Shown here one piece after another: positions 42,109-58,334 of a DNA stretch of 64,000 bases. Position numbers and translations under genes: made by a program. Source of the DNA: Bogoriella caseilytica (GTDB lineage: Bacteria; Actinomycetota; Actinomycetes; Actinomycetales; Actinomycetaceae); contig NZ_RKHK01000001.1 of the NCBI RefSeq assembly GCF_003752405.1, positions 248,001-312,000 of the forward strand, in the 5' to 3' direction. The stretch's first letter is position 1, and each line of letters begins with the position of its first letter. The notes beneath the pieces are model-generated. The model was not told the DNA's origin, made no database searches, and saw only the letters and a program-made list of their open reading frames with translations.

Positions 42109-43638
42109 TCACGTGCGCTGCTGGAGGAGTCGAGCCGTCGTGCTCCGCAGTCGCCACGCGGTCAGCACGGTGCGGCTGAACCAGCTCAAGGTCATGGCCA
42201 AGGCGATGCCGAGAAGCCCCAGTTCCAGCCAGACTCCGAGCAGCCAGGCGGCCGGCAGCGCGATCGCCACCTGGGCAAGGAGACCGATGTACATCATCGA
42301 CTTCGTGTCTCCCACGGCCCGCACCACAGCCGCCATGGAGATCGAGGCCACGATCAGCGGGGCGATGAGCCAGAACACCAGCAGTGCACGGCCGATCGAT
42401 TCGATCACGGCCGCATCGGTGGTGAAGAGCCGCAGATACCAGCCCGGAACGACCAGTGCGGGCAGCGCCAGCACCGCGACGCACCCGCCCATGACGATCG
42501 CGCCGGCGCGCGCATAGTCCAGACCGGCCCGGAGATCACCGGCACCGTGGCGCTGCCCGACCAGGATGGAGATACCCGAACCGCAGGTGAAGGCGACCGT
42601 GAACAGGATGGCCACGGTGCTCGCCATCACGCGGTAGCCGGCGAGCTCGACCGCACCCAGAAACGCCACCGCCGCGACGATCAGCACGTCCCCGCCATAG
42701 GCGCCGAGCCCGAAAACGACGTCGGGCCAGGCCACCTTGCCCAGCGGGCGCAACACGGGTTCCGTGCCGCTCTCCTGTGTGACCTCCAGGCCACGCCGAT
42801 GCCGCAGGGCGAGGCCGAGGCATACGGCCAGACCGAGATAGTGAGCGATCGTGGTCCCCCACGCGGCGCCCTGCGCCCCCTGCTGCAGACCGAAGACCAG
42901 CGCGAGGGAGATGGCGATATTGGCCAGGTTCACCACTGCGGCGTTCGCAAGGGCGACCTTGGTGCGCCCTTGCGCTCCGAGCCACCCGCGAGCCGCTGCA
43001 CTGAGCGCCGCGGCCGGGATGGCGAGCGTGAGGATCCGCAGCACCTCGATGGCCGCTTGCTCTGCACTGGCCGAGGCGGAGGCACCCGTGATCTGCAGCA
43101 CCCAGGGGGCGGCGAGGTAGAGGCCGACCGCGAGCACCAGCCCGAGGCCCAGTGTCAGGGCCGCGCTGTGGGTGAGCAGCCGGACCAACCGACCGGTCTC
43201 CTCGCCGCCGTGCCACTGCGCACCCACGATCTGCACTGCCATCCCCCAGGGCACGAGCACGGCAGTGCAGAACACGAAGATGACCACGGCGCGCGCCATC
43301 ACCGCGAGCTCGAGCGTGTCGTACTGCCCGAGGATGGCGGTATCTGCCACGGCGGTGAGCAGGGAGACAGCACTGCCGGCGACCAGTGGCCAGCTCAGTG
43401 AGCCCACAGCACGAATGCGCGAGGAAAGTGACGGGCGTGAGTCGGCGGGCGGAGTGTCTACGCCGAACGGCGCATCGCTCGCGGCTAGTGCGGTGGAAGC
43501 GGGCCGCTTGGCCGAGGTGTTCTCGGCCAAGCGGCCCGCGTGCGCCAGGGGGGCGCCCGAACCGGCGCGGGCGGGTGCAGAATCCCCATCCAGCCCACTC
43601 CCGCGCCGGTCGTCTGTATCCCTGCCCTCAGGCGGCAT
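42109..43638 (-). CDS. MATE family efflux transporter
   Basis: About 509 residues. Twelve membrane helices of the MATE fold begin near VGSLSWPLVAGSAVSLL. The transporter exports organic cations or drugs in exchange for H+ or Na+. The N-terminal ~75 residues before the first helix are hydrophilic and unusual for MATE. The start is uncertain. ATG 43638 overlaps the stop of the MRF-like gene by 11 bases; GTG 43407, just before helix 1, is possible and lies beyond an 18-bp perfect hairpin in the N-terminal coding region. Last gene of the rpmE2-mrf operon. Confidence 0.85.
   Translation of the reverse strand: MPPEGRDTDDRRGSGLDGDSAPARAGSGAPLAHAGRLAENTSAKRPASTALAASDAPFGVDTPPADSRPSLSSRIRAVGSLSWPLVAGSAVSLLTAVADTAILGQYDTLELAVMARAVVIFVFCTAVLVPWGMAVQIVGAQWHGGEETGRLVRLLTHSAALTLGLGLVLAVGLYLAAPWVLQITGASASASAEQAAIEVLRILTLAIPAAALSAAARGWLGAQGRTKVALANAAVVNLANIAISLALVFGLQQGAQGAAWGTTIAHYLGLAVCLGLALRHRRGLEVTQESGTEPVLRPLGKVAWPDVVFGLGAYGGDVLIVAAVAFLGAVELAGYRVMASTVAILFTVAFTCGSGISILVGQRHGAGDLRAGLDYARAGAIVMGGCVAVLALPALVVPGWYLRLFTTDAAVIESIGRALLVFWLIAPLIVASISMAAVVRAVGDTKSMMYIGLLAQVAIALPAAWLLGVWLELGLLGIALAMTLSWFSRTVLTAWRLRSTTARLLQQRT
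43499..43539 (-). repeat. Perfect 18-bp inverted repeat inside the MATE 5' region
   Basis: GCGGGCCGCTTGGCCGAG and its exact reverse complement are separated by five bases. It resembles an actinobacterial terminator hairpin without U-tract and lies ~90 bases after the MRF-like stop, inside the annotated N-terminus of the MATE gene. Confidence 0.85.
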
Positions 43639-44680
43639 CACGTGCCGTTCCGAGCCAGGGGTCGAGGCCGTCCGCTCGGCCGCTCCAGGAGTCGAGCCCT
43701 CGCGCGAGCTCGACATCGGTCAGCAGCACGGCCTCGAAGGCATCGATCACCCGACGCGGGTCCCCCCCGAGGCCGGTCACGACCAGGTGGGTGTCGGGAC
43801 GCGACTCCCACGGGCCGATCCGGCCGACCGAGACATGGCCGCCGGCGCCGTCCCAGGCACAGGCCACGCTGGGGCGGGTGGCTACCCAGAAATGCCCCTT
43901 GGAACGCACTGCATCACCGCCCAGGGCTTCGGCGTGTTCCATCAGCCGATCCGGGTGAATGGGGCGCCAGGTGGCCAGGTCCACCGTCCACACATCCTCG
44001 GCCGGGCCGGCACCGGTGGAGGCCACCGCCATGAGGTCTCCCCGATCCAGGCTGGGCCGGGCCAGCAGCAGACGCTCGGCCGGCGGGGAGTACCAGGGCA
44101 TGGCCGCCTCAGGGCCGGTCAGGTGCGCCAGGATCGCGGCCACATCGGCCGGGGTCTCCTCGGGGTGGGTGGAGGTGAGCACCACGTCCGCGGTCTCGAG
44201 CTGGGAGACGAGCACCTCGGCCACCATGCGCTCGTCCTCGACCGCGACCGCCAGGCCACGCTCGGCCAGCAGGTCCTGGCAGGTGAGATCGGCCCGTAGG
44301 GAGGCGATGTCGGCCACTGCAGCTACACCGGCAGCCACCACGCCACGGGCTTGAGCCATCGCGTGAAGCACCGGCACCGACTCCAGAGCAACCGGAAGCG
44401 ACAAGATGATGGCCGTGGGGCGTGACATGGCGAGTTCCTCGAGCGCGGGAACGATGTCCTCCCGCACCGCACACGAAGCGCACGCGTGCTCCAGGTGTTT
44501 CGTGGTGTCCTGCAGCACCCCACTGGGGTCGTGCACGCGACGGCGGAGCTCTCCACTGCGTGCGTCGAGATCGTGCTGCAGTGCCACAGCTCCGGGAAGG
44601 TCGCAGAGTAGCGAACTGGTGGCCGCTCCCCGCAGCACCGGATCCAGGGACGTCAGCGTGATGACGGGAACCGCGGTCAT
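43628..44680 (-). CDS. mrf: MRF-like ribosome hibernation factor-recruiting protein (COG0523/CobW relative)
   Basis: 350 residues. It resembles CobW/COG0523 proteins but the usual P-loop is lost: the first loop reads [16 protein letters not shown] without GxxGxGKT. A CASC segment (residues ~68-71) stands where the GCxCC metal motif occurs. The C-terminal CobW_C-type domain contains [12 protein letters not shown]. This is the form of mycobacterial MRF, encoded with Cys-free ribosomal proteins and recruiting the hibernation factor under zinc depletion. It follows rpmE2 with a four-base overlap. Assignment by family and context. Confidence 0.82.
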
Positions 44681-44937
44681 CGACCGCCCCCGGCACGCTT
44701 GCCATAGCGGCGCTGGAAACGCTCGACGCGGCCCTCGCTATCCATGACGCGGGCCTTGCCGGTCCAGAAGGGGTGACTGGCCGAGGAGATGTCGACGTCG
44801 TAGACCGGGTAGGTTTCGCCGTCCTCCCACTCGATGGTCTTCACCGGCTTCATGGTGGACCGGGTCAGGAACGTGGCTCCTGAGGCCGAGTCGCGGAACA
44901 CAACCGGTCCGTACTCCGGATGGATGTCCGGTTTCAC
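44677..44937 (-). CDS. rpmE2: Ribosomal protein L31 type B (zinc-free)
   Basis: 86 residues, no cysteine. It opens [20 protein letters not shown] and contains [24 protein letters not shown], the type B L31 signature. It replaces the zinc-binding L31 when zinc is short, releasing zinc. GTG start at 44937 with AGGAGG close upstream. First gene of a minus-strand operon (L31-MRF-MATE) divergent from rpmB2. Confidence 0.97.
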
Positions 44938-44958
44938 GAGAACCTCCTGGTAGGCTTA

Positions 44959-44975
44959 TCAATAACGGTTCTCAA
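44959..44975. promoter_or_regulatory. Candidate Zur box between divergent rpmE2 and rpmB2 operons
   Basis: TCAATAACGGTTCTCAA, 17 bases with five of eight matching positions in the two arms. It lies in the 60-base gap between the divergent starts. The arm TGAGAA is shared with sites at zur (48172) and the uptake operon (57929). Binding inferred. Confidence 0.6.
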
Positions 44976-44997
44976 TATCATATCAGGAGGTCCGGCC

Positions 44998-45234
44998 GTG
45001 TCCGCACACTGCCAAGTGACGGGGAAGTCGCCGAGCTTCGGCAAGACTGTCTCGCACTCCCACCGGCGCACCTCGCGTCGGTTCAACCCGAACATCCAGA
45101 CCAAGCGCTACTTCGCGCCGTCCCTCGGACGCACCATCACCCTTCGGGTCTCCACCAAGGGGATGAAGGTCATCGACAAGCGGGGTATCGACGCCGTAGT
45201 CGCCGAGATGCTGGCCCGAGGGGAGCGCCTCTGA
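44998..45234 (+). CDS. rpmB2: Ribosomal protein L28, cysteine-poor zinc-independent paralogue
   Basis: 78 residues. The N-terminal [20 protein letters not shown] keeps the L28 core but the usual CxxC is reduced to one Cys (AHCQVTGK), so it cannot form the zinc ribbon. GTG 44998 has a near-perfect AGGAGGT seven bases upstream; the in-frame start at 44920 lies inside the divergent gene. It heads a plus-strand operon with L33, S14, L36, a methyltransferase and a COG0523 GTPase. Confidence 0.96.
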
Positions 45235-45401: not shown

Positions 45402-45414
45402 GAGGCACGCAGAG

Positions 45415-45720
45415 ATGGCCAAGAAGTCCAAGATCGCCAAAGACGCGCAGCGCCGTGAGGTCGTGGCGCGTTACGCCGAGCGCCGAGCCGAACTCAAGCG
45501 GACCTCGGTCAACCCGCACGTCAGTGACGAGGAGCGTGAGGCCGCCATGGCAGCCCTGCATGCGCTCCCGCGAAACGCCAGCCCGGTTCGGCTCCGCAAC
45601 CGTGATGTCGCCGACGGCCGCCCTCGCGGGCACCTGCGCACCTTTGGGCTCTCCCGCGTGCGATTCCGTGAGATGGCATTGCGCGGGGAACTGCCCGGCA
45701 TTCGTAAGTCGAGCTGGTGA
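45415..45720 (+). CDS. rpsN2: Ribosomal protein S14, long zinc-free form
   Basis: 101 residues, starting [20 protein letters not shown], and ending with the S14 motif [20 protein letters not shown]. The long S14 form lacks the CxxC-CxxC zinc module of the short form. Third gene of the operon, 13 bases after rpmG2. It probably replaces the zinc-binding S14. Confidence 0.96.
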
Positions 45721-45730
45721 GAGGTCTGCC

Positions 45731-45856
45731 ATGAAGGTTCGTAACTCGCTGAAGTCCCTGAAGGAACAGCCCGGCGCGCAGGTGGTGCGCCGCCGTGGCC
45801 GCGCCTATGTGATCAACAAGAAAAACCCGAGGTTCAAGGGCCGGCAGAAGGGCTGA
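45731..45856 (+). CDS. rpmJ2: Ribosomal protein L36, cysteine-free form
   Basis: 41 residues: [19 protein letters not shown] and the basic core [20 protein letters not shown]. The zinc cysteines of classical L36 are absent. Preceded by GAGAGG and 10 bases after rpsN2. Confidence 0.96.
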
Positions 45857-45860
45857 GACC

Positions 45861-46565
45861 GTGAGCAACCGGGAGATGGCGCAGGAACTCCATGATCTCT
45901 TCGTGCCGGAGTCGGCCTGGGATCGCTTGCGGCCCGCAGTCGTCGAGTCCTTCGGAGGACTTGCATCCACCGCGCGCCTTCTCGATCTCGGAGCCGGCAC
46001 CGGTCTGAGCATGCGGTTGCTGGCCGAGTGCAGTGAGGCGCGCATTATTGCTGTCGAACCCGCAGCGGGGGCACGCACAGCCTTGCTGGCGCGCGTCGCC
46101 GACGACCCAGCCCTCACCGGGCGCGTCAGCGTGCTCGCCGGCGCGGCGCCGGAAGTCCTGGAGGAGATCTCGGATCCATTGGACGGCGTGCTGTGCGCGC
46201 ACGTGATCGGCCACCTGGACAGCGGGCAACGTCGAGCCACGCTCGCCTCTCTCGCTCGGCTCCTGACGCCCAGGGCCCCCATCGTCATCACCGCCCCTCA
46301 ACACCCGCGCCAGCCCGAGGCTGAGGTGGTCGAGGAGCACCGCGAGATCGGCGAACTGACCTACACCGTGCGGTATCACCTCACCGGCGCCAAAGCGGGT
46401 ATCGAGGCTGACGAAGTGCGCGACGGCGAACGCCTGTTGCGCGCGGCGGAGGGAGAGAACAACTGGGCCACAGTCACTCAGGACGAACTCCACCGCGACG
46501 CAGCCGAGGCCGGGCTACGCCTGGAACCTTCCTCCCCATCGGTGGCGATCCTGCGCGCAGCCTGA
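45861..46565 (+). CDS. Class I SAM-dependent methyltransferase in the zinc-free ribosomal operon
   Basis: 234 residues. SAM-binding motif LLDLGAGTGLSMRLLAE at ~40-56, followed by IIAVEPAAG. Methylated substrate unknown. GTG start four bases after rpmJ2, so it belongs to the same operon and is predicted to be induced by zinc shortage. Could act on rRNA, a small molecule or a metallophore precursor; nothing decides. Confidence 0.8.
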   Translation: MSNREMAQELHDLFVPESAWDRLRPAVVESFGGLASTARLLDLGAGTGLSMRLLAECSEARIIAVEPAAGARTALLARVADDPALTGRVSVLAGAAPEVLEEISDPLDGVLCAHVIGHLDSGQRRATLASLARLLTPRAPIVITAPQHPRQPEAEVVEEHREIGELTYTVRYHLTGAKAGIEADEVRDGERLLRAAEGENNWATVTQDELHRDAAEAGLRLEPSSPSVAILRAA

Positions 46566-46593
46566 TGCCGGCCACCGTCATCAGGCAGGACCC

Positions 46594-47622
46594 ATGGCTA
46601 TGACGACACCGCGCCCCCAGGTGCCGGTCATCGTCCTTGCCGGTTACCTGGGCGCCGGGAAGACCACCCTGCTCAATCACGTACTGCGCCAGCCCGGCGC
46701 GCGCGTGGGCGTGGTGATCAACGACTTCGGTGACATCAACGTCGACGCCGCATGGGTGAGCGGGCAGATCGACGAGCCAGCTGCCATCTCCGGCGGTTGC
46801 CTCTGCTGCATCTCCGACACCAACGAACTCGACACCGCACTGGAACGTCTGGCCGCCCCTCGGCTGAGGCTCGACGCGATCATCGTCGAAGCCAGCGGCT
46901 TGGCTGATCCGGCCACGCTGGCGCGAATGGTCCGCTTCTCCGGGGCGGAAGGCACTCGGCTGGGAGGCGTGGCCGAGGTGGTGGACGCCGTGCACCACGC
47001 ACACACGGCCCCCTCCGGTCACGACGCCGCCACGCGCTGGGGTGCAGCCTCCCTCGTGGTGGTCAACAAGCTGGACCTGCTGTCTCCAGGTGACCGCGCG
47101 GCGTACGTCGGGGCCATTGCCGACACGGTGCATGCGCGGAACCCACGCGCGCTCGTGGTGGGCACCAGCGCCGGCAGCATCGACCCAGCATTGCTGTATG
47201 GGGTAAGTGAGGCTGCGGACGACCCGGCACAACTTCCCCTGCGCGAACTCCTGCTCGAGGAGGCCCGGCCGCACCCTCACGTCCACGCCGATGCCGTGTC
47301 GGTCCGTGCGCCGGCGGGGGCCGATCCCGGCCGGGTGATCGATCTGCTGGAACGCCCACCGGCGGGGGTCTACCGCATGAAAGGCACCGTGGTGGTCCGC
47401 TCCGGGACACGGTGGCGCAGCTACGCGGTCAACCTCGTGGGCTCCAGCATCCACGTGGCGAGCGCCCCCAGGGCCGAGCGGAGTGAACTCGCGGCGATCG
47501 GATTACACCTGGACGTTGACACAGTGCGTCACCGCCTCGACCACGCCGTGGCTCCGGGAGCCGGAGCACCGCCTGCAGTAGGTCTTCGGCGCCTGCAGCG
47601 CTACCGCCGCCTCAGCCGCTGA
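46594..47622 (+). CDS. COG0523/CobW-family GTPase (zinc metallochaperone type)
   Basis: 342 residues. Complete P-loop GYLGAGKTTLLNHVL at 17-31, metal-binding GGCLCC at ~68-73, G4 NKLD near 155, and a CobW_C domain at ~240-325. A His-containing segment (HPHVHAD) lies between the domains. Zur-controlled members supply zinc to client proteins. Last gene of the rpmB2 operon. Confidence 0.92.
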   Translation: MAMTTPRPQVPVIVLAGYLGAGKTTLLNHVLRQPGARVGVVINDFGDINVDAAWVSGQIDEPAAISGGCLCCISDTNELDTALERLAAPRLRLDAIIVEASGLADPATLARMVRFSGAEGTRLGGVAEVVDAVHHAHTAPSGHDAATRWGAASLVVVNKLDLLSPGDRAAYVGAIADTVHARNPRALVVGTSAGSIDPALLYGVSEAADDPAQLPLRELLLEEARPHPHVHADAVSVRAPAGADPGRVIDLLERPPAGVYRMKGTVVVRSGTRWRSYAVNLVGSSIHVASAPRAERSELAAIGLHLDVDTVRHRLDHAVAPGAGAPPAVGLRRLQRYRRLSR

Positions 47623-47676: not shown

Positions 47677-48078
47677 TCAATGCTCGCGGCGCGTAGCGCA
47701 CTGGCCACATCTGCCGTACCCCTCCAGGAGGTGGCGTTGCAGGGTGAAGCCGCGCTCGCCCGCCACTCGGCTGAGCCACCCTTCATCGGGGGCCTCAACC
47801 TCCTCCACGCGCCCACAGTCTTCACAGACAAGGTGATGGTGATGTTCGGGACCCCGGCATGCCCGGAAGACCTGCGACTGCCCCAGTGGTACCGCGTCCA
47901 CCTCACCCAGCTCCGCCAGGGCGTTCAGATGCCGGTAGACCGTCGCCAGTCCGACGTGGTCACCTGCGGCCTCAAGCCGTCGGTGCAGGTCCTGGGCTGA
48001 AATGAAACCGTCCACCTCGTTGAGCACTCGCAGGATGACAGTCTTCTGAAAGGTCTGGCGCCGCCCGGTCTGACTCAC
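47677..48078 (-). CDS. zur: Zinc uptake regulator Zur (Fur family)
   Basis: 133 residues. A winged-helix domain with GLATVYRHLNALAELGEV is followed by a dimerisation domain bearing HHHHLVCEDCG and a C-terminal CGQC, giving the structural zinc site (two CxxC) and sensor ligands. Fur family is certain; the Zur identity comes from its location among Cys-free ribosomal proteins and zinc ABC genes. Zinc-loaded Zur should repress both. A palindrome lies in its own upstream region. Confidence 0.93.
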   Translation of the reverse strand: MSQTGRRQTFQKTVILRVLNEVDGFISAQDLHRRLEAAGDHVGLATVYRHLNALAELGEVDAVPLGQSQVFRACRGPEHHHHLVCEDCGRVEEVEAPDEGWLSRVAGERGFTLQRHLLEGYGRCGQCATRREH

Positions 48079-48171: not shown

Positions 48172-48190
48172 GATGATATTGATTCTCATC
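48172..48190. promoter_or_regulatory. Candidate Zur box upstream of zur
   Basis: ATGATATTGATTCTCAT, six of eight arm positions complementary. It is ~95 bases before the zur start and ~75 before the ArsR-type gene, so it could control either or both. Confidence 0.65.
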
Positions 48191-48230
48191 ACTAGGCTTC
48201 CGGCCGACACTGAATGACAAGGTCTCTCAA

Positions 48231-48263: not shown

Positions 48264-48596
48264 ATGGTGGAGTGGACCATGCACGAGGACAACGGATTGG
48301 CCGAAGCGGCGCAGCTGTTCAAGGTGCTCGGGAATGTCTCGAGACTGCAGCTGCTGCGCCTCATCGGCGAGTCTCCACAGACGGTCAGCGGTCTGGTGGC
48401 CGCGACAGGCATGTCGCAACCACTGGTGTCCCAGCACCTGCGGACCCTGCGCCAGGCAGGGCTCGCTGCGGCGGCTCGCGACGGTAAGGCGGTGAGGTAC
48501 AGCCTGGCCGACGATCACGTCGCGCATGTGGTCTCCGACGCCCTCGAGCACGTGAACGAGACCATCGGGCCGCACACCAGTCCTGACCTGCACTGA
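48264..48596 (+). CDS. ArsR/SmtB-family zinc-responsive repressor
   Basis: 110 residues. The winged-helix core has GLVAATGMSQPLVSQHLRTL as the recognition segment. The C-terminal helix reads DDHVAHVVSDALEHVNE, which matches the SmtB/CzrA alpha-5 zinc site (D-x-H, then H and E at +11 and +14 from the first His). Zinc is therefore the likely inducer. ATG 48264 or 48279 may be the start. A His-rich small protein follows ten bases downstream. Confidence 0.9.
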   Translation: MVEWTMHEDNGLAEAAQLFKVLGNVSRLQLLRLIGESPQTVSGLVAATGMSQPLVSQHLRTLRQAGLAAAARDGKAVRYSLADDHVAHVVSDALEHVNETIGPHTSPDLH

Positions 48597-48605: not shown

Positions 48606-48761
48606 ATGAGCACCACCCACCCCGAAGCCGAGCACACCACGACCGAGCACGCCCACGGCGAGAACTGCGGGCACGAGGCCGTGCCCCACGAGGACCACGT
48701 GGACTACCTCCACGACGGCCACAAGCACGCACCGCACGGGGACCACTACGACGAGCACTGA
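48606..48761 (+). CDS. His-rich small metal-binding protein (51 aa)
   Basis: ATG 48606 to TGA 48761. Thirteen of 51 residues are His, with many Asp and Glu, one Cys and no hydrophobic segment: HTTTEHAHGENCGHE and DGHKHAPHGDHYDEH. GAGGAG lies upstream and the gene follows the ArsR-type repressor by nine bases. A zinc buffer or chaperone is the obvious reading; similar proteins are sometimes mislabelled 'zinc transporter permease'. Confidence 0.82.
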   Translation: MSTTHPEAEHTTTEHAHGENCGHEAVPHEDHVDYLHDGHKHAPHGDHYDEH

Positions 48762-48875: not shown

Positions 48876-49640
48876 TCAGTCTCTACTGATCGTGCTCACG
48901 AGGTAGTTCACCGGAAGACGGAGACTTCCGTTCTCCCGTTCTCCACTCGCTGAGATCGCGGCAAGCAACTGCTCACGGGCCGTGGCCCAGGCCTCGCCAA
49001 GCTGCGACCTCGCCACGATGATCGGAGCGCTGTGCTCCTCCATGAGGGCGATGAGGTCCTCGGCCGAGGGCACCACCATCGTGAAGGCGCGCTCCTGCAC
49101 CGCCACGCCTACCTCCCCCAGACACTCCCGCACAGTCGCACGGATCGACCCGGGCGTCTCATGCCAGGGCGCAGGCGCCTCCGGGAAATAGCCGGCCAGT
49201 GCCTGACGGATCGACCCGAAGGCGCCATCGGCAGACCAACTGGTCATCACCAGCTCCGCTCCCGGGCGCAGCAACCGCCACGCTTGCGGGAGGGCGCGTG
49301 CCGGGTCGGCGAAGATCAGTCCCACGGTCGAGGTGACCAGGTCGGCCGAAGCCGGTTCTAGCGGCAGGTCCTCCACATCGGCCTGCACCCAGGTCACGGC
49401 AACGCGCGCTGCCTGAGCGCGCCGCTCCGCCTCCTGGAGCAGCGCCGGCGTGATGTCGACGCCGGTCACACGCGCTCCCGCGCGCGCCGCGGCGATGGCG
49501 GTCACACCGGTGCCGGTCGCCAGGTCGACGACGTCCTGGCCGGCTGGGTCAAGCGCCTCGATCAGATCCTGGCCTTGCTGCGCCCAGAGATCGCCGATCA
49601 CGGCATAGTCGCCGAGCGACCAGAAATCCGCCGCGCTCAT
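48876..49640 (-). CDS. Class I SAM-dependent methyltransferase coupled to the zinc ABC operon
   Basis: 254 residues. SAM motif VVDLATGTGVTAIAAARAGA (residues ~36-55), followed by VTGVDITPALL and the Asp of VQADVEDLPL. UbiE/COQ5-like layout. The start overlaps the stop of the permease gene by four bases, so it is the last gene of the zinc uptake operon. Substrate unknown. Confidence 0.83.
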   Translation of the reverse strand: MSAADFWSLGDYAVIGDLWAQQGQDLIEALDPAGQDVVDLATGTGVTAIAAARAGARVTGVDITPALLQEAERRAQAARVAVTWVQADVEDLPLEPASADLVTSTVGLIFADPARALPQAWRLLRPGAELVMTSWSADGAFGSIRQALAGYFPEAPAPWHETPGSIRATVRECLGEVGVAVQERAFTMVVPSAEDLIALMEEHSAPIIVARSQLGEAWATAREQLLAAISASGERENGSLRLPVNYLVSTISRD

Positions 49641-50587: not shown

Positions 50588-51390
50588 CAGTTCACCCCCA
50601 GGGCACTGAGCAGGGGCGAACCGTCACGGAAACCGAAGGTCTCGATCCACACCTGCGGATCGCGTAACTGCTGCGGGCTGCCCTCGGCCACCACCGTCCG
50701 GTTGACGAGGTAGAGGCGGTCAAAAGTGTGCATCGCTCCGGCCAGGTCGTGTGTGGTCATCAGCAATGCCTGCCCCTCCGCGCTCAGCTCGGTGAACAAA
50801 TCCGTCAGCATCTCCTGAGTGGGGATGTCCAGCCCGGTGTAGGGCTCATCGAGGAGCAGGAGCCTCGGGCGCAAGGCGAGGGCCCGTGCGACGAGTACGC
50901 GTTGACGCTGCCCGCCGGAGAGCTGGCCGACTGGCCGCTCTTTCAGGTCACTCATGCCCGCACGCTCGAGCGCTTCAGAGACCGCACGGTAGTCCTCGAC
51001 CTTCGGCCGGCGCAGCCAGCCCATCCGGCCCACGCGGCCCGAGAGCACGACGTCGTGCACGGAGATCGGGAACTCCCACGCGAACTCGTGCCGCTGGGGC
51101 ACATAGCCCGCGGCACGGCGAGCGGCCTTGGTGGCATTGCCGGCCATGGTGATCTCGCCTTCGCGAACCGGCACGAGGCCGAGTACGGATCGGATGAGAG
51201 TGGTCTTCCCAGCTCCGTTGGGTCCGATGAGCCCGACGAGTTCACCCCCGGAGACCTCCAGGCTCACGTCCCGCAGCACAGGGCGGCCACCAAGGTCCAC
51301 GGCCAACCCGCGAACGCTGAGTTCAGCGGCGTCAGGCACATGCGGCGCCGCGAGCGCGGCCGCGCTCGCTACTGTGGCAGTCTCACTCAT
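50587..51390 (-). CDS. Zinc ABC ATPase (anchored-repeat type, ZnuC-like)
   Basis: 267 residues. Walker [11 protein letters not shown]-loop YVPQRHEF, signature LSGGQRQR, Walker B LLLLDEPYTGLD. ZnuC/AztA type. ATG 51390 (MSETATVAS) overlaps the end of the upstream gene by eight bases; 12 upstream Arg-rich codons in frame are not used. Confidence 0.93.
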   Translation of the reverse strand: MSETATVASAAALAAPHVPDAAELSVRGLAVDLGGRPVLRDVSLEVSGGELVGLIGPNGAGKTTLIRSVLGLVPVREGEITMAGNATKAARRAAGYVPQRHEFAWEFPISVHDVVLSGRVGRMGWLRRPKVEDYRAVSEALERAGMSDLKERPVGQLSGGQRQRVLVARALALRPRLLLLDEPYTGLDIPTQEMLTDLFTELSAEGQALLMTTHDLAGAMHTFDRLYLVNRTVVAEGSPQQLRDPQVWIETFGFRDGSPLLSALGVN

Positions 51391-52420
51391 CACCGGCCTC
51401 CTTCGCCGCAGCGGCCTTGGCGGCACGTGCGCGCAGCACGCTGAGCACGATCAGGGTCACGAGCACCACGGCACCGGCACCGATACTGAGCGCCAGCCAT
51501 GGAAGCCCCTCGGCCTCCGCCGCAGCACCCTCGTCGCCTGCTTCATCGGTGCCCTCGCCGTCTGGGCTGGCGTCCACATCACCGGAGTGCTCCGCGTCGC
51601 CGTCATCGCCTGGGGAGTCGTTCTCCTGGCTCGGCGTGCCCTCTTCGCCCTGCCCGGCGTCGTCACCATCGACGTCGGCCGCCTCGGTGAAACCTGCGCC
51701 GAAAACCTCGTGGGGCTCGGTCTGCCCGCCCACCGCGAAGCGCAGAGTGTCGCGCGAGGACCCGACCTCACCATCGCGCAACTCTCCGAAAAGCTCCACA
51801 TCAAGGAGGTAGACCCCCGGTTCGGTGAAGATCCAATTGCCATGCACGTGGGTGTTGGTATCGGCCCAAATGTCCTGCGGCTCCGGATCGGAGGATGTCC
51901 AGAGCAGCTGGGGTGGGTCGAAGTTCCCGCTCTGGAGGAAGAGCGTGAACTGCCCCGGGCCCTGAACACGGTGCAAGCGCAGGGTCATACCGCGAGAGAG
52001 CTGCTCGACGACGTCCGGATCCTGGGTGTTCCACCCGAGCCAAGGCACGTCATAGTTCTCGGTCTGCGGGATGACGTAGAGATCCGATCCTGCCTCGGCG
52101 TCGATGAAGGCGAAGTCCTCCTCGGTCGGCGCCGGCAGGATGCTGTCCTCTGGCAAGTGGAAGACCATATCCTCCAGCGACCGCCACACCGGCGGAGCCA
52201 AGGTGTCGTCGCGGGCCAGCAGCAGCCACTCGCCGTCCAGGATGCGTGGCCCGATGTCCACGTGACCGTGATCGATGACCACGCGTTCATCGCCGATCTC
52301 TTCGTCACGGTCAATCGTCTGGTCCAGGGGATCCTCCTGGTCAGCCTGAGCTGGCAGTGCGGCAGGCAGGAGGGCCACGGTCGCGGCGCCCAGGGCACCG
52401 AGTCGAAGGTGTCGAAGCAC
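51383..52420 (-). CDS. Membrane-anchored surface-domain protein (choice-of-anchor M type)
   Basis: 345 residues. Signal peptide ending PAQA (~28), then one actinobacterial surface-anchored domain (TIGR03769 type, ~45-230) with HGHVDIGPR at the start and HVHGNWIFTEPGVYLL near the end. An acidic Asp/Gly/Glu linker follows (~245-300), then a C-terminal helix with a short basic tail. No LPXTG motif. GTG 52420 has GAGGA five bases upstream; the longer frame is not used. A probable extracytoplasmic zinc-relay component. Confidence 0.83.
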   Translation of the reverse strand: MLRHLRLGALGAATVALLPAALPAQADQEDPLDQTIDRDEEIGDERVVIDHGHVDIGPRILDGEWLLLARDDTLAPPVWRSLEDMVFHLPEDSILPAPTEEDFAFIDAEAGSDLYVIPQTENYDVPWLGWNTQDPDVVEQLSRGMTLRLHRVQGPGQFTLFLQSGNFDPPQLLWTSSDPEPQDIWADTNTHVHGNWIFTEPGVYLLDVELFGELRDGEVGSSRDTLRFAVGGQTEPHEVFGAGFTEAADVDGDDAGQGEEGTPSQENDSPGDDGDAEHSGDVDASPDGEGTDEAGDEGAAAEAEGLPWLALSIGAGAVVLVTLIVLSVLRARAAKAAAAKEAGDE

Positions 52421-52458
52421 GGGTTCCTCAGTTCTCGCTTGTGTGGGGAAGTCGGGTA

Positions 52459-54084
52459 TCAGGAGAGGCACTCGTGCAAGATGGCGGCGTTGAAGCGCAT
52501 CATCTCGACATACGTGGTGACCTCATCATCAAAGGCATCGCCATAAATGGGGCACACCTCGACTCCGAGATCCTGAGCCGTCTCCGTCAGCGTGTCCGAG
52601 CGGGCGATGAGATTCGGTTCCAGGAAGACCGCAGGTATCTCCAGATTCCTGATGGTCTCCACCAGACGCCGTCGTTCCTGCATGCTCGGCTCTGTCGCGG
52701 GATTCGGGGTCACGAAACCGGCGATCTCGAGGTCGTAAGCCGCGCCGAGATAGCCGAAGGCATCATGGGTGGTCACCAGGTAGCGCCGCGAGGCGGGAAT
52801 GTCCTCGATGGTCTCGGCCATATAGGCGTCGAGTCTCTCGAGCTCGAGCAGATAGCCCCTCGCGTTCTCCCGGTAGTCAGGCGCGCCCTCGGGGTCGATC
52901 TCGATCAACGTGTCCCGGATGATCTCGACATAGGCTTGGGCATTGCCCACGTCGTGCCAGAGGTGCGGGTCGATCTCTCCGTGGACGTGCGCTCCGAGGA
53001 CAGCCTGAGGCAGCTGGTAGATCTGGTCTCCCGCTCGTCCGAGGAAGCGGAAACCCGGGTCTGGCGGGATCTCGTGCAGCGCCCGGTTGGGCACCTCGAT
53101 CACGACCTCATCCGCCGCGTAGATCCGCTGGGTGTGGTCACCACCTCCGTGTGGGTCGGCGTAGAGGTAGATCTGGCCAGCATCGATATCGACCGCAACA
53201 TCGGCGTGTCCGTGCGCGAGCACGTCCGAGCCTTCGTGGCCGGCGACCTCATGCGGGTTCGTGCCCACGGCGAAGGTGAAGGTCGTCTCGTCGGCCAGAT
53301 CGATGCTCGTGTCCTCATCCACCACCAGCTCGGCAGACATGGTGAGCTCATAGATCCCGGGCTCGGTGAAGGCCCAGCTCATATGGGTGTGCGCGTCAGG
53401 AGGGAGCCGGGTGGTGTCCTCATCGGTCAGCCCGTCCGCCGTGGAGAAGTAGAAGGCGGGGTTCCCGAAGGTCTCGGTGAGGTAGGAGACGAGCTCACCC
53501 GGCCCGTCGATGCCGGTAGCACGCAGGTTCACGTGCGAGGCTCGGCTGGCGCCGTACTCCTCCCCTGTGCCGCGGACGCGCAGTCCCAGCCAGACGGTGT
53601 CCAGGGAGACGTTCTCCACCAGGGGGATGATCTCTGCGGCGTAGCGCACCGCTGCTTCGGCCAGGGAGACGTTCGGTACTCCCTCGCGAACGTTGGCGTC
53701 GATCATCCGGATGATCGAGTGATCCTCGAGCAGCATGTAGTTCGAGAAGGCCGCATCGGCGTAGACGATGGACCGCACATCTTGGAGCGTCGGCTCGTAG
53801 GAGTGCGGGTCAGCACCATCCGGGACGAGCTGGCTCACGTCCATCCGCTCACCTGCCACATTGCGAGCAAGGTCGGCCAGGATTCCCGTGGTGGTCACCA
53901 CTGAGGGCCGGGTCTCCTCCTCCACGGCGACGCCGGGGTGCGCGCATGCGGCCAGGAGCACGCCACAGGCGGTGGCGGCGACCCGGCCGACCCGACCCCG
54001 GCCCCGGCCCCGGCCCCGGCCAGCGTCATCACGATCGACGTCTGACCGGGGCGAGACCACAGCGGGCTGCACGGGATCAGGCAC
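52459..54084 (-). CDS. ZnuA-like binding lipoprotein with an inserted surface domain
   Basis: 541 residues. Lipobox LAAC (Cys47) after an odd GR-repeat n-region. The ZnuA/cluster 9 fold is split: N-terminal MDVSQLVPDGADPHSYEPTL (ligand His94), then an inserted TIGR03769-type domain (~150-280, ending HMSWAFTEPGIYEL), then the rest with VHGEIDPHLWHDV and TTHDAFGYLG, which supply further His ligands. This matches anchored-repeat substrate-binding proteins (TIGR03772). It captures zinc for the ABC permease. Confidence 0.9.
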   Translation of the reverse strand: MPDPVQPAVVSPRSDVDRDDAGRGRGRGRGRVGRVAATACGVLLAACAHPGVAVEEETRPSVVTTTGILADLARNVAGERMDVSQLVPDGADPHSYEPTLQDVRSIVYADAAFSNYMLLEDHSIIRMIDANVREGVPNVSLAEAAVRYAAEIIPLVENVSLDTVWLGLRVRGTGEEYGASRASHVNLRATGIDGPGELVSYLTETFGNPAFYFSTADGLTDEDTTRLPPDAHTHMSWAFTEPGIYELTMSAELVVDEDTSIDLADETTFTFAVGTNPHEVAGHEGSDVLAHGHADVAVDIDAGQIYLYADPHGGGDHTQRIYAADEVVIEVPNRALHEIPPDPGFRFLGRAGDQIYQLPQAVLGAHVHGEIDPHLWHDVGNAQAYVEIIRDTLIEIDPEGAPDYRENARGYLLELERLDAYMAETIEDIPASRRYLVTTHDAFGYLGAAYDLEIAGFVTPNPATEPSMQERRRLVETIRNLEIPAVFLEPNLIARSDTLTETAQDLGVEVCPIYGDAFDDEVTTYVEMMRFNAAILHECLS

Positions 54085-57000
54085 GGAGCCGCCGGGAGAC
54101 GACCACGGCGGTGGCTCCCGCGAGCACAGCCAGGAAGCCGGCCAGGCCCACGCTGAGCGAGTTGTCGCTCAGGCCGGTGTTCGGCAGGCGGCACGGCTGG
54201 CCATCGGCAGTCCGTCCCCAGCCCGAGGGCAGGCTCTGGGCCGCCGGCTGATCTGCCTGCTCGGCCGTCTCCTCCTCCGACTCCTCGTCCGTGTCCTCCG
54301 CGCCGTCCTCGGCTTCCTCGCCAGTGCGGGCGAGTGCGGAGGAGACACTGAGGGACTGTCCACCCGCGGTGGAGATCTGGGCGCTGGTCTCAGCGCTGAT
54401 CTGCGCCGCCGAGGAGGGGTCGTTCTGACCCACCGAGAAACGCAGGGTTCCCGTGGCGGACTCGCCGGCAGCCGCCACCGTGAAGGCCATGGCGTAGTCG
54501 CCGGGCTCGGTGAAGACCCAGTTGCCGTGCTGATGGGTATTGGCGGGGATGGTGTAACTCCGAGGACCGCCCACGATGTCAACGACGCGTTCACCCAGAA
54601 GCGAGCCGAAGTTGCCATTCATGAAGACGGCGACCTCACCGGGGCCGGTCACCGAGTCCAGGGTGAGCTGGACGCCGCCGGAGCCAGGTCCGTTCACGAT
54701 GGTCTCGTGCTGGGTGTTCCACCCCAGCCACGGCACGCCAGCCTCCTGGATCTGCTGGATCATCCAGATGTCCTGCCCGGGCGGGGCGATGAAGGACAAC
54801 TCCTCCGGGACGGTGTCGGCCGCGCGCCGCGAGTTCTCATCCAGGACGAAGACCACGGTGTCCGGGTCACGCCAGACGGGCGGGGCCGTGCGGTCGTCCT
54901 TCACCTGAAGCTCGAAGGCGCCACCCTCGACGATGGGTCCGAAGTCGAAATGCCCCTCGTTGCCGTAGACCACCTGGCCAGCGGGGGCAGGGCCGCCGGC
55001 ACCGTTGCCACCGGCACCATCGGTGTCACCGGACGCACCCGCACCGTCGCCGCCGGATCCTGACGGCCCGCCGGCTCCCTGATCAACCGCCAGGCACTGT
55101 GGCGGTGCACCTCCACCCGGACCACCGGCACCCGGGCCGCCTGCTCCAGGACCGTTGGAACCATCGCCGGAACCGCTTCCGTTCGATCCGTCACCGGGGG
55201 TGTGATCACCATCGGGGTCCGGCGTGGGCTCCGGGGTCGGCTCAGGCGTCGGCTCTGGGCTCGGCCTGGCCTCCAGCACCTCGAGCGCGGCCCAACCCAC
55301 GAGCTCGTTGTTCGCGTCCACCACGCTCACCCGGTGAGCGCCGGGCTCGGTGCCGGCCGGGATGGTCGCCACGAAGCTGCCTTCGCCGTCGGCCAGGACC
55401 CAGTCGGTGAGGTGCACAACCTCGGAATGCAGGAAGGCGGCACCGTAGGAGTTCCGCAGCGACGGCGCGGTGACGGTCACCTGGTCACCGGCGTGGACGC
55501 GCGCGGGGGCCACGCTGACGTCGCCGGCGTTGGCCTCGGTGAGATCGTCGGTGCTGGGGGGCCTTGGTTCCCCGGAGGGACGCTGAACGCAGTCCTGCCA
55601 GTTCTCGGGCAGATCATCGCCCACGGTGAAGGCGTACCGTCCCGTGTTCGTGACGAACTCGGCTCCGGTCTCGGAGTCGGTGAGGGTGGCATTCACCGTG
55701 AGGTAGTAGACGCCGGGTTCGGTGAAGGCCCAGTCGGCATGGGTGTGCGCCAGATAGGACTGGTGGATGGTGCCCGGCAACTCGTAGCTGCGGTCATCGA
55801 GCAGGGAGGCCACGCCACCGAAACCTGAGCTCGTCCACAGGACGATCTCGCCGGGGCCGTCCACGGTGTGAATGTGGATGTCCACGGTGTCGTAGCTGGT
55901 GCTCCGCAGCGGCTGGCTCTCCCACCCGGGCCAGAGCAGGTTGTGGTTCTGCGTCAGCGGAAGGTGGTAGGCCTCCTCGTGGTGGAGCACCTCCGGTACC
56001 GCGGACACCGCCGGGAACTCGGTCAGTGACTCCTCCTTGGCGTGCAGCTCCACGACCTCGGGCGCCCGGACCGCGTACGGCGAGACGGTGTCGTCCTTCA
56101 GGGCGAGGAAGGGCACACCCTCGTCGTCCACCGTGAAGTAGAAGGCGTCCACGTGCCCCTGGTCGATACGCACCTCGTCCCAGCAGATCCCGGGCTCGAG
56201 GGGCGGGTCCTCCGGCGGTGGCGCGCTGCCTTCGCGCACCTCGATGGTCACCGGCTCCGCAGCGACCAGCGTCTCACCGTCGAGCCGGTACTCGGCACGG
56301 ATCTGCTGCCCATCGACCTCGGCCACGCCGCGGTAGGTCTCGTCCGTGACATCGGCCGATGTCCACGACTCACCCTCGTCCTCGGAGACCTCCCAGCGGT
56401 AGACAGCGCCCTCGACCAGCTCATCGGCCACAGCAGTCAGCGTGACGTCATCACCCGGCTCGTAGGGGTTGGAGAGCCCTTCGATCAACAGCTCGGTGGG
56501 CAAGACGGGGTCGGGATCGGGCTGGACCACCTCAATGGTGACGGGATCCGAGGTCACGACGTCCTGGCCGTCGACGATCACGGTGGCCCGGATCAGCTGC
56601 CCGTCGACCTCAGCAGTTCCCGCGAAGACGGGGCCGCTCTGACCGTCGACAGCCGTCCAGGTGGCGCCGTCAGCGGAGGTCTCCCAGCGGTAGGTCGCCC
56701 CGTCCACCAGCACATCCGGCTTGGCCTCGAGGGTGAGGCTGGCTCCTGCGGCATAGGGGTTGTCGAGACCATCGAGGATCAGCTGCGTCGGCAGCTCGGG
56801 CTCGGGGATCTCGCTCTCGGTCACCGTGATGGTCACCGGTTCCGAGGCGATCTCTCCGTCGTCGCCGTAGCTGGCCACGGCGCGCAGCTGATGGGTGCCG
56901 ACGGCAAGTTCCGCGGCGAAGACCTCCGAGACCTGACCATCGACGGCCTGCCACTCGCCGTCGACGCCCACCTGCCAGGACCACGACGGGTCGACCGCGT

Positions 57001-57862
57001 CCCGCGAAGGAACGCGGACGGCGTCACGGTCGAGCGCCGCGAACAGCTCCACGAGGTCGTCGGCCTCATAGTCGGTCTCGCCGCCCACCGAGAGACTCCC
57101 CGGCAGGCGCAGGAACTCACCGACGGTGAAGAGGTACTCGCTGGTGTTCGTGGTCGCGGTCTGCCCGGTCTGCGGGCTGTGTGCCTCGGCCTCCACGGTC
57201 AGCCAGTAGTCCCCGGGCTCGGTGAAGGCCCAGTGCGCGTGGACATGGGCGAGGTAGGACTGGTGGATGGTTCCCGGGAAGGAGACACGGCCGTCGTTGA
57301 GCAGGGGGACAACCTGCGAACCCCAGCTGTCCTGGGTCCACAGGAAGACCTCGCCGGGCCCCTCGACGTCGGTGACATGGATGTCCGTGGTCCGGAAATC
57401 CGTGGCATGCAGTGGCTGGCTCTCCCAGCCCGGCCAGAGCAGTTGAGCGTTCTGCGTCAGCGGGAGGTGATACACCTCCCGCTCGTGCAGCTCCGCGGGG
57501 AAGTTCGGGGGTTGTGGGATGGCGAGCCGAGCCTGCTCCCTGACGTGCAGCTCCACGTCCTCCGGGGCGCGCGTGGCGTGAGGCTGGACCGTGTCGTCCT
57601 TGAGTGCCAGCCGGACACCGCCGTCGCCGTCAGGAATCAGGTAGAAGGCATCGACGTGGCCCTCCTCGATGACGACGTCACGGTCGTAGGAGCGCTCAGG
57701 GCCTTCTCCGGTCGGAGCCGGCAGGGCGCCGGGCTCGTCGGCAAGAGCGCCGGAGCCCAGCACGACCGGACTCAGCAGCCCGGCGATCAGGGCCAGCCGG
57801 GCGGTCAGTGCCGCCATGGTGCGGCCGCGCGGATGTGACCGCGCAGAGATGGAGGGGGGCAT
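54077..57862 (-). CDS. LPXTG-anchored surface protein of the zinc transporter (TIGR03773 type)
   Basis: 1261 residues from ATG 57862. Signal peptide cleaved near residue 41. Three surface-anchored domains: ~65-248, ~562-748 and ~1000-1150, each with H...W-FTEPG near its end. Between the first two are three Ig-like repeats (~258-543), the last two near-copies. A Pro/Glu then Gly/Ser/Asp-rich spacer (~850-970) precedes domain three. The sorting signal LPNTG is at 1226-1230, then a hydrophobic helix and RRLRA tail. Sortase should link it to the cell wall. First gene of the uptake operon. The longer frame to 58123 has no matching start. Confidence 0.9.
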   Translation of the reverse strand: MPPSISARSHPRGRTMAALTARLALIAGLLSPVVLGSGALADEPGALPAPTGEGPERSYDRDVVIEEGHVDAFYLIPDGDGGVRLALKDDTVQPHATRAPEDVELHVREQARLAIPQPPNFPAELHEREVYHLPLTQNAQLLWPGWESQPLHATDFRTTDIHVTDVEGPGEVFLWTQDSWGSQVVPLLNDGRVSFPGTIHQSYLAHVHAHWAFTEPGDYWLTVEAEAHSPQTGQTATTNTSEYLFTVGEFLRLPGSLSVGGETDYEADDLVELFAALDRDAVRVPSRDAVDPSWSWQVGVDGEWQAVDGQVSEVFAAELAVGTHQLRAVASYGDDGEIASEPVTITVTESEIPEPELPTQLILDGLDNPYAAGASLTLEAKPDVLVDGATYRWETSADGATWTAVDGQSGPVFAGTAEVDGQLIRATVIVDGQDVVTSDPVTIEVVQPDPDPVLPTELLIEGLSNPYEPGDDVTLTAVADELVEGAVYRWEVSEDEGESWTSADVTDETYRGVAEVDGQQIRAEYRLDGETLVAAEPVTIEVREGSAPPPEDPPLEPGICWDEVRIDQGHVDAFYFTVDDEGVPFLALKDDTVSPYAVRAPEVVELHAKEESLTEFPAVSAVPEVLHHEEAYHLPLTQNHNLLWPGWESQPLRSTSYDTVDIHIHTVDGPGEIVLWTSSGFGGVASLLDDRSYELPGTIHQSYLAHTHADWAFTEPGVYYLTVNATLTDSETGAEFVTNTGRYAFTVGDDLPENWQDCVQRPSGEPRPPSTDDLTEANAGDVSVAPARVHAGDQVTVTAPSLRNSYGAAFLHSEVVHLTDWVLADGEGSFVATIPAGTEPGAHRVSVVDANNELVGWAALEVLEARPSPEPTPEPTPEPTPDPDGDHTPGDGSNGSGSGDGSNGPGAGGPGAGGPGGGAPPQCLAVDQGAGGPSGSGGDGAGASGDTDGAGGNGAGGPAPAGQVVYGNEGHFDFGPIVEGGAFELQVKDDRTAPPVWRDPDTVVFVLDENSRRAADTVPEELSFIAPPGQDIWMIQQIQEAGVPWLGWNTQHETIVNGPGSGGVQLTLDSVTGPGEVAVFMNGNFGSLLGERVVDIVGGPRSYTIPANTHQHGNWVFTEPGDYAMAFTVAAAGESATGTLRFSVGQNDPSSAAQISAETSAQISTAGGQSLSVSSALARTGEEAEDGAEDTDEESEEETAEQADQPAAQSLPSGWGRTADGQPCRLPNTGLSDNSLSVGLAGFLAVLAGATAVVVSRRLRA

Positions 57863-57928
57863 GAAGTTCTCAACAATCCAGCGCGAGGCGCGTTCACAGG
57901 AGGGATAGGACTCACGGCGAGAGTAGTA

Positions 57929-57945
57929 ATGAGATTCATTCTCGT
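57929..57945. promoter_or_regulatory. Candidate Zur box at the zinc uptake operon
   Basis: ATGAGATTCATTCTCGT, six of eight arm positions complementary. It lies 67 bases before the LPXTG gene start and ~195 from rpmB, so it most likely represses the uptake operon. Confidence 0.7.
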
Positions 57946-58139
57946 CAATGCCCGCTCGTCGATGGCCGGGCGGTGATTGATCCCACCACCAGGGCCCTGT
58001 CGTGCCATTGAGGCCACCTGCACCCCTCGGGTACTCTGGAGCGGTTGCCCAAAAGCTCCATGCGCACTCGCATGCACTGGCGGGCCCGACCATCAGCACA
58101 TCGGCGCCACCCCAGGCGCACAAGGATCAGGAGAAGACC

Positions 58140-58334
58140 GTGGCTGCCACCTGCGACGTCTGCGGCAAGAAGCCGAGCTTCGGCAAGAGCGTCTCGCACT
58201 CTCACGTGCGCACCTCGCGTCGCTGGAACCCGAACATTCAGCGCGTGCGCGCTCTGGTGAACGGAGCCGCCAAGCGCGTCAACGTCTGCACCGGGTGCCT
58301 GAAGTCTGAGAAGGTCGTCCGCGCGACACGCTGA
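58140..58334 (+). CDS. rpmB: Ribosomal protein L28, zinc-binding form
   Basis: 64 residues. The complete zinc ribbon is present: CDVCGKKPSFG at the start and CTGC near the end. GTG 58140 has AGGAG seven bases upstream; the in-frame start at 58002 adds residues unlike L28. It is the zinc-replete counterpart of rpmB2 at 44998. Monocistronic, ended by a strong terminator. Confidence 0.96.
   Translation: MAATCDVCGKKPSFGKSVSHSHVRTSRRWNPNIQRVRALVNGAAKRVNVCTGCLKSEKVVRATR

Follow-up and report, generated by a model that had tools for sequence, protein, structure and literature searches.

A Predicted Zur-Controlled Zinc-Starvation Island with an Anchored-Repeat Importer in Bogoriella caseilytica

We analyzed a 64,000-nucleotide stretch (the window, G000:C1:248001-312000) of the 3.24-Mb single-contig genome of Bogoriella caseilytica (NZ_RKHK01000001.1). 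Gene calls and family profile scans delimited an island of about 16 kb at window positions 42109–58334, in which cysteine-poor ribosomal protein paralogues, an MRF-like protein, a COG0523 GTPase, two metal-type regulators, a His-rich peptide and an anchored-repeat ABC (ATP-binding cassette) importer are grouped around three palindromes. The sequence data make a well-supported case for a zinc-starvation island under predicted Zur-type control, confirming the observation made in an earlier note on this DNA. The best explanation, to which we assign a probability of about 0.8, is a chromosomal island that would be repressed by a Zur-type protein at the three boxes and released when zinc falls. The model proposed in the earlier note is partly supported: it was right in outline, and its claim about the regulator needs correction. 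The island is of an already known kind, the zinc islands of mycobacteria, and what is different here is the type of importer. It is built from known parts, with cysteine-poor ribosomal proteins, an MRF-like protein and a COG0523 protein as in mycobacteria, and an anchored-repeat importer as in Corynebacterium diphtheriae.

Layout, predicted Zur boxes and zinc-sparing genes

The genes named in the earlier note were all found at their positions by family profiles and open reading frame (ORF) calls; its list left unmentioned two methyltransferases (MT1 and MT2) and a MATE-family gene. The genes are tightly packed. On the minus strand, L31, the MRF-like gene and the MATE gene overlap, and on the plus strand the neighbors in the run L28-L33-S14-L36-MT1-COG0523 overlap by 1 bp or sit 4 to 28 bp apart. 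A 60-bp gap with one palindrome divides these two divergent runs. A second Zur-type gene (zur2) and the pair arsR-hisR diverge around the second palindrome, and the third stands 64 bp from the start of the importer operon, made up of the genes for the wall protein, the binding protein, the ZnuE-like protein, the ATPase, the permease and MT2. The base composition was checked for signs of a recent foreign insert; GC content was 0.65–0.70 along the island, compared to 0.69 for the window, and the borders were not sharp.

The three palindromes had been taken in the earlier note as Zur boxes at the expected promoters, and this held up. Box 1 (44957–44977; 28.2 bits) lies in the gap between L31 and L28, box 2 (48172–48191; 30.5 bits) between zur2 and arsR, 72 bp before arsR, and box 3 (57927–57947; 30.5 bits) before the wall-protein start. 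A search of the window with the published mycobacterial Zur consensus (PMC7174638), allowing up to 3 mismatches, gave 7 matches against 0.38 expected, a number that none of 100 shuffles reached, and five of the seven correspond to the three promoter sites. The whole genome gave 54 matches and a backward-pattern control gave 1. However, 9 of the 11 sites examined outside the window fell within predicted ORFs, which makes the mycobacterial consensus alone weak evidence; it was therefore dropped as proof of the boxes and a matrix was built. The matrix was based on 29 sites from other genomes; as these had been chosen by eye and by means of the consensus, it is not fully independent of the latter. 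In 3.24 Mb of Markov sequence it found a single site of at least 18 bits, and the best clearly coding site in the genome's own list, at 19.7 bits, marks the noise level. At 28.2–30.5 bits, the three window palindromes are convincing predicted Zur boxes.

The genome-wide box search covered sites with up to 3 mismatches, and the two best outside the window, among the 54, stand at the genes of an anchor-M protein and an AztD-like protein. A near-perfect Zur-type palindrome (29.4 bits) was found at the called start of a gene for a secreted protein (L250:4594-7479, plus strand, G000:C1:2254594-2257479; NF038134 135.3 bits, cut-off 55) that carries an anchor-M domain; the true start of this gene is probably downstream of the box. 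A box of 20.4 bits lies 55 bp upstream of the gene for an AztD-like secreted protein with a His/Asp-rich start (L251:2523-4007, minus strand, G000:C1:1610523-1612007; NF038015 375.2 bits, just below the cut-off of 400). A check of the ZepA paper (PMC10957091) for terms on anchors, the surface, AztD and actinobacteria gave no match. With boxes before these two genes, the predicted regulon extends beyond the window. The single zinc-starvation program envisaged earlier thus keeps its saving, capture and import arms, with boxes at three promoters, while further boxes and a znuACB-type operon lie elsewhere: much of the predicted program, though not the whole, is in the island.

Five ribosomal protein paralogues flank box 1. 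L31 type B (44677–44937, minus strand; NF002462 133.1 bits, cut-off 86) is followed in the opposite direction, on the plus strand, by L28 (44998–45234; TIGR00009 87.4 bits, cut-off 48.3), L33 (45234–45401; NF001860 83.7 bits, cut-off 50), S14 (45415–45720; NF006477 131.6 bits, cut-off 77) and L36 type B (45731–45856; NF002021 77 bits, cut-off 70). All belong to their families and have lost zinc cysteines. The description of these proteins as Cys-free is accurate for L31, L33, S14 and L36, which contain no cysteine, and not for L28, which keeps 1 of 4. Zinc-type partners were looked for in the case of L28, L31 and L33 and were found for all three. The zinc-type L28, with 4 cysteines, is the divergent neighbor of the importer operon (58140–58334, plus strand; TIGR00009 81.8 bits), 192 bp from box 3, and the cysteine-containing L33 and L31 are at G000:C1:2103951 and G000:C1:2414093, respectively. 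Since both types are present in the same genome, replacement is possible for at least these three proteins. Downstream of the zinc-type L28 is a Rhodanese/3-mercaptopyruvate sulfurtransferase-like protein (58519–59703) that scored under its curated cut-off.

Where an MRF and two COG0523 proteins had been reported, we found one true COG0523 GTPase and one relative without a P-loop. The GTPase (46594–47622, plus strand; PF02492 127.5 bits) has the P-loop GAGKTT and a CxCC motif in GGCLCC, and meets no NCBIfam equivalog cut-off. Its relatives, collected in a scan of genome contigs, occur in Mycolicibacterium, Brachybacterium, Actinomyces and others; among 57 such loci, L090 was the only one with several shared neighbors. 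L090 is on a contig from a metagenome-assembled genome, titled Acidobacteria, and has MRF-like, COG0523, His-rich and ArsR genes together. The other protein (43628–44680, minus strand; CobW_C 47.5 bits) lacks a PF02492 match and a P-loop and has CxxC in place of CxCC. Among the 28 proteins compared, its own sequence included, the P-loop is present in 0/28 and CxxC in 28/28. Rv0106 also lacks the P-loop (PMC2770081), and the Rv0106/MRF family is similar in having no Walker A motif, an altered CxCC motif and an association with zinc-free ribosomal genes under Zur (PMC2770081, PMC7174638). Unlike that family, the window protein reaches only 115.7 bits with the MRF model NF047431 (cut-off 375), and by similarity we call it MRF-like only.

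The anchored-repeat importer

The operon downstream of box 3, on the minus strand, is a complete ABC uptake operon, as had been noted, with both the subunits and the wall protein exceeding NCBIfam cut-offs. It is headed by a cell-wall protein (54077–57862; TIGR03773 398.7 bits, cut-off 190.3) with three anchor-M domains, matched by NF038134 in three stretches, and an LPNTG tail; the profile scan of this protein was run on 54077–57859. Next are a ZnuA-type substrate-binding protein with an inserted anchor-M region (52459–54084; TIGR03772 736.1 bits, cut-off 350.45), in which the motif order is reversed, HxH at residue 232 preceding HxD at 293, and a ZnuE-like anchor-M protein with one HxD/HxH pair (51383–52471; NF038134 176.2 bits, cut-off 55). 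The ATPase (50587–51426; TIGR03771 358.6 bits, cut-off 268.8) and the permease (49637–50587; TIGR03770 422.8 bits, cut-off 296.8) follow.

The ZnuAECB type is defined (PMC12445094, section 5) by HxD/HxH pairs that are reversed in ZnuA. These were found here, together with TIGR03770, TIGR03771 and TIGR03772 matches above cut-off in one operon with anchor-M proteins. The gene order A-E-C-B, the HxD/HxH motifs in the ZnuE-like and wall proteins, the reversed ZnuA pair and the LPNTG tail are all present, and by these hallmarks the importer is a member of the C. diphtheriae-type zinc system, with a predicted role in transport. The C. diphtheriae znuAECB-znuF-znuG genes are alike in encoding a ZnuA with reversed HxH/HxD, a ZnuE, an ATPase, a permease and HxD/HxH wall proteins with one sortase signal (PMC12445094). 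In C. diphtheriae, however, a second, downstream operon holds the wall genes, whereas here a single three-domain wall protein comes first in the operon and a methyltransferase last. Microarray, promoter fusions and electrophoretic mobility shift assay showed the C. diphtheriae importer to be Zur-regulated, its genes being repressed by Zur (PMC6711530), and thermal shift assays showed zinc binding by ZnuE and ZnuF (PMC12445094).

A fold prediction for the anchor-M repeat, made from the four copies in the window, had a mean pLDDT of 84.1 and consisted mostly of strands. Foldseek gave no match to this model at E ≤ 0.001, the best VIA-align Z score was 6.0, and a profile search of PDB sequences gave a best E value of only 0.19. 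As modeled, the anchor-M repeat appears to have no clear solved relative.

Regulators, His-rich peptide and methyltransferases

The genome has three Fur-family genes. The one in the island, zur2 (47677–48078, minus strand; PF01475 96.1 bits), had been called Zur in the earlier note. It is Zur-like: its product, Zur2, resembles Zur more than it does Fur, Nur or PerR, with 106.2 bits to the Streptomyces coelicolor protein (ScZur, 3mwm), 90.8 to Mycobacterium tuberculosis FurB (MtbFurB) and 72.9 to the best Fur. It is not, however, the canonical Zur. The orthologue of canonical actinobacterial Zur is a protein here called Zur1 (Z1; 164.2 bits to ScZur and 157.8 to MtbFurB), whose gene follows those for a binding protein, an ATPase and a permease at the end of a znuACB-type operon (L258:1406-4520, plus strand, G000:C1 about 2785406–2788520). 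This operon is of the zinc/manganese type, and its binding protein and permease score under NCBIfam equivalog cut-offs. In a 60-row tree, the rows of which were mostly chosen as best Zur2 matches, Zur2 grouped with proteins from two other families, f3 and f6, in a clade of 30 rows (support 100/100) that excluded canonical Zur and ScZur; a nearer tie to f6 was not firm (92/65), and the branch is long. The f6 relatives are beside COG0523 genes in 10 and near L36 in 11 of the 12 genomes for which loci were returned, a neighborhood that places Zur2 with zinc-saving genes rather than with znu. Residues C79, H84–87, C90, C93, H122, C130 and C133 (ScZur numbering), which we take to be the metal ligands, are conserved in both Zur proteins of this genome, and the recognition-helix region is nearly identical in the two.

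The ArsR/SmtB-type sensor (48264–48596, plus strand; NF033788 79.3 bits, cut-off 55; the start may be at 48279) has 8qkf, NmtR and SmtB as relatives in the PDB. It carries the motif D-x-H-x10-H-x2-E in α5, in agreement with what we take to be the SmtB/CzrA-type definition, D-x-H-x10-H-x2-[E/H], and is predicted from this to bind DNA until released by zinc. The motif is kept in all 20 of the ArsR relatives from 35 zinc or His-rich-peptide loci. The sensor gene is followed by that for a His-rich peptide (HisR; 48606–48761, plus strand) of 51 amino acids, 13 of them histidine, for which there is no matching model in Pfam or NCBIfam. Matches to HisR were found in 46 of 396 phylum genomes. Thirty loci of up to about 3 kb were taken (L265–L294, ours among them), and 23 of these have at least two copies; the neighbor is an ArsR gene in 15 and a canonical-type Zur behind a znu-type permease in three (L266, L267 and L292, with HisR between the two), and neither is present, at the limits used, in 12. 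ArsR and the His-rich peptide are a recurrent unit across the phylum. In one genome (G505, L350:10034-10363), two His-rich copies are fused in a 109-residue frame that overlaps arsR by 4 bp. The smtB-smtA pair of cyanobacteria is a comparable sensor-peptide unit, from which the window peptide differs in having histidine where that one has cysteine. The His-rich peptide would most likely buffer zinc that floods in when supply returns.

The juxtaposition of starvation and excess sensors had been singled out as notable. It is not peculiar to this locus, since smtB-zur is a known mycobacterial operon (PMC7174638, PMC4298942). In M. smegmatis that operon lies outside the zinc cluster, whereas here zur2 and arsR diverge inside the cluster and are accompanied by the His-rich peptide.

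MT1 (45861–46565, plus strand; PF13649 38.9 bits, cut-off 27), a class I S-adenosylmethionine-dependent methyltransferase, occupies fifth place in the ribosomal-protein operon, where gaps of 4 bp and 28 bp separate it from L36 upstream and COG0523 downstream, respectively. Six other loci contain MT1 relatives at E ≤ 1e-18 among 297 order and 296 phylum genomes. The relative in G194 overlaps by 4 bp an anchored-repeat binding-protein gene that is cut by the end of a 3-kb contig, the one in G505:C18 is divergent from arsR and His-rich copies, and the one in G162 has as neighbors a Fur-like gene and a cysteine-poor ribosomal operon. In G562 (L352:3149-4800), a Zur-type box overlaps the putative first codons, and a large gene of the nonribosomal peptide synthetase (NRPS) type with a second box adjoins; this locus is a candidate zincophore cluster. 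A fifth relative (G505:C5) lies head to head with the gene for a binding protein whose start is rich in histidine, and at the sixth locus (G055:C3) no zinc neighbor was seen. The relatives are thus zinc-linked in four of six cases and doubtful in one. The solved relatives of MT1 are remote methyltransferases (best E 6.5e-5), and a plasmid search gave 3 weak Streptomyces matches.

Weaker relatives of MT1 also occur in clusters of the NRPS type, part of which have Zur-type boxes. Three such loci (L238, L239 and L243) combine an MT1-related methyltransferase with Zur-type boxes and resemble coelibactin clusters. A role for MT1 in tailoring an NRPS zincophore in this genome was considered and dropped, as the Condensation domain had no match at E ≤ 0.001 genome-wide.

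MT2 (48876–49640, minus strand; PF13649 73.4 bits) is also a class I methyltransferase and overlaps the permease gene by 4 bp. The MATE-family efflux gene (42109–43716, minus strand; TIGR00797 157.7 bits, cut-off 147.4) is the last in the L31-MRF direction, its start overlapping the MRF-like gene. It has 32–34% matches in L171 and L193, and none was listed in 20 kb of G040; it is possibly a passenger.

Recurrence, alternative readings and proposed mechanism

The earlier note had suggested a search for synteny, and a similar layout was indeed found in three other genomes. Among 297 genomes of the order, the importer is above cut-off in 48 and the MRF-like protein is matched in 114. Eighteen genomes, compiled by hand, hold both (importer over cut-off, MRF-like protein at E ≤ 1e-20), and in four of them the two lie within 20 kb: our own, G040 of the same family, and G321 and G328 of two other families. 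By our own arithmetic, about 0.2 would be expected by chance, and because several genomes are fragmented, 4/18 is a lower bound. In G040, the island contains the importer, COG0523, His-rich, ArsR, L36, S14, L33, L28, L31 and MRF-like genes, with Zur, MT1 and MATE unmatched; G321 is without COG0523, both regulators and L31, and G328 is without COG0523 and MT1, its Zur being nearer the canonical type. Similar boxes were seen by eye in the gap upstream of the cysteine-poor ribosomal genes in 15 of 20 MRF-centered loci (L188–L207) and in all three other super-loci (L168–L170), and before the anchored-repeat genes in importer loci such as L168, L171, L174, L175, L176, L183 and L185. That the arrangement recurs across families suggests that the clustering was selected rather than accidental.

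The closest described systems are mycobacterial. Islands like ZnGI of M. avium paratuberculosis are marked by clustered operons for zinc sparing and zinc import that all carry Zur boxes, and the present island shows this pattern. ZnGI (PMC4298942) has zinc-free ribosomal paralogues with Zur boxes, CobW-like proteins including an Rv0106-like one, a metal ABC transporter and the methyltransferase MAP3738c, and an extra Fur/Zur-like protein, MAP3773c, beside the CobW-like MAP3772c, the canonical FurB being MAP2139. MAP3773c is likely an earlier case of a second Zur. Unlike the present island, ZnGI spans 90 kb, contains NRPS-type sid, ESX and PPE genes, and has smtB (MAP2138) outside it; an anchored-repeat importer is not among the genes described in the parts of PMC4298942 available. 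The M. smegmatis cluster MSMEG_6045-6071 also resembles the island: it contains ZnuABC, a pair of CobW-like proteins of which one is MRF, alternative ribosomal proteins and the methyltransferase MSMEG_6055, and the smtB-zur operon outside it likewise has a Zur box (PMC7174638). Among the papers listed in searches of open-license literature, none was found on the MT1 subfamily, a Zur2-type duplication in this group or an ArsR-linked His-rich peptide.

Several points weigh against a Zur-repressed island as proposed here. The palindrome overlapping the called start of the znuACB-type binding-protein gene scored only 13.9 bits, within the noise, so that one shared operator for the whole program is at most a possibility. 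In other genomes, the box search with up to 3 mismatches came up empty for the ribosomal gaps of L191, L193, L195, L197 and L207 and for the entire importer loci L179, L180 and L181. The super-loci themselves differ, with no Zur gene in G040, no regulator or COG0523 in G321 and a Zur nearer the canonical type in G328. There are two Zur-type proteins in the genome, the canonical one being outside the island, and Zur2 scored 53.5 bits with the NCBIfam Zur model NF008646 (cut-off 167), in a scan that covered Zur2; the MRF-like protein is similarly far below its curated cut-off. In C. diphtheriae, the HxD/HxH residues were not conclusively tied to zinc binding in vitro, and deletion of znuF or znuG left growth unimpaired (PMC12445094).

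A chance neighborhood without co-regulation is nevertheless hardly credible, given the box scores of 28.2–30.5 bits and the repetition of the clustering in three families. A more serious question is which protein would bind the boxes. With somewhat less than even odds, boxes 1–3 are read by the canonical Zur1, and Zur2 has a minor or differently tuned function, mainly regulating itself and arsR-hisR. Zur1 is the clear orthologue of ScZur and MtbFurB by score and in the tree, and a single Zur is the rule in the order: 276 of the 297 genomes have a match at E ≤ 1e-20, of which 269 have one and 7 have two, and boxes from that order's genomes match those in the window. The G040 island carries no Zur gene, and both proteins of this genome retain the metal ligands and have near-identical recognition-helix regions. 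Against this stand the position of Zur2 within the locus, with its own box, and the ties of its f6 relatives to COG0523 and L36 loci rather than to znu.

Two parts of the island might be independent of zinc starvation. That arsR-hisR is a separate device against metal excess (Zn, Ni or Co), merely lying in the cluster, seems unlikely: ArsR-type sensors are as a rule excess sensors, the motif fits other metals too, and in other genomes HisR and ArsR occur where no ribosomal genes were seen in 3 kb, but box 2 is only 72 bp before arsR, the pair follows the cysteine-poor ribosomal genes on the same strand in G040 and G328, and HisR sits between a znu-type permease and Zur in three loci. It is a real possibility, which we nonetheless consider slightly the less probable one, that MT1, MT2 and the MATE protein are passengers with no zinc role. 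MT1 is unmatched in G040 and G328, no zinc neighbor was seen for one (G055:C3) of the six strongest MT1 relatives, and MT2 has no match of at least 70 bits in the 40 loci compared. Conversely, MT1 is tightly packed between L36 and COG0523, and four of its six relatives are beside zinc-type genes or a Zur box, with a fifth beside a His-rich metal-type binding protein. Zur-regulated methyltransferases also exist in mycobacterial zinc islands (MSMEG_6055, PMC7174638; MAP3738c, PMC4298942).

From the gene identities, the boxes, the recurrent layout and the conserved metal-site motifs, we infer the following course for the zinc-starvation island, including its derepression, the importer's substrate, the box-binding protein, the hand-over of zinc, the buffering role and a methylation target for MT1. 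When zinc is present, a Zur-type repressor would occupy boxes 1, 2 and 3. Box 1 would govern L31/MRF-like in one direction and L28/L33/S14/L36/MT1/COG0523 in the other, box 2 would govern zur2 and arsR-hisR, and box 3 the importer operon. As zinc falls, all three boxes would be released. Zinc-free ribosomal proteins could then take over from zinc-holding ones, sparing metal, while the COG0523 and MRF-like proteins may handle zinc delivery and ribosome state. The LPxTG-type wall protein and the ZnuE-like and ZnuA-type proteins would pass zinc via their HxD/HxH domains to the ABC permease, and the box-2 unit would yield more Zur2 together with the SmtB-type sensor and the His-rich peptide, readied during starvation.

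A more far-reaching version is doubtful, though worth stating. The island might stand alone as a module in which Zur2 responds to another zinc level than the canonical Zur does, a Zur-released SmtB-type sensor and a His-rich buffer form an anticipatory shock absorber that catches returning zinc, and MT1 represents an undescribed Zur-linked subfamily; because no condensation domain was found in the genome, MT1 would here work without an NRPS zincophore.

The island indicates that zinc islands like those of mycobacteria, equipped with another importer, are also present in further actinobacterial families, and that such clustering is probably not a mycobacterial oddity. It also directs attention to the retention of two Zur lineages, to the role of the ArsR-linked His-rich peptide and to the target of the zinc-linked methyltransferase.

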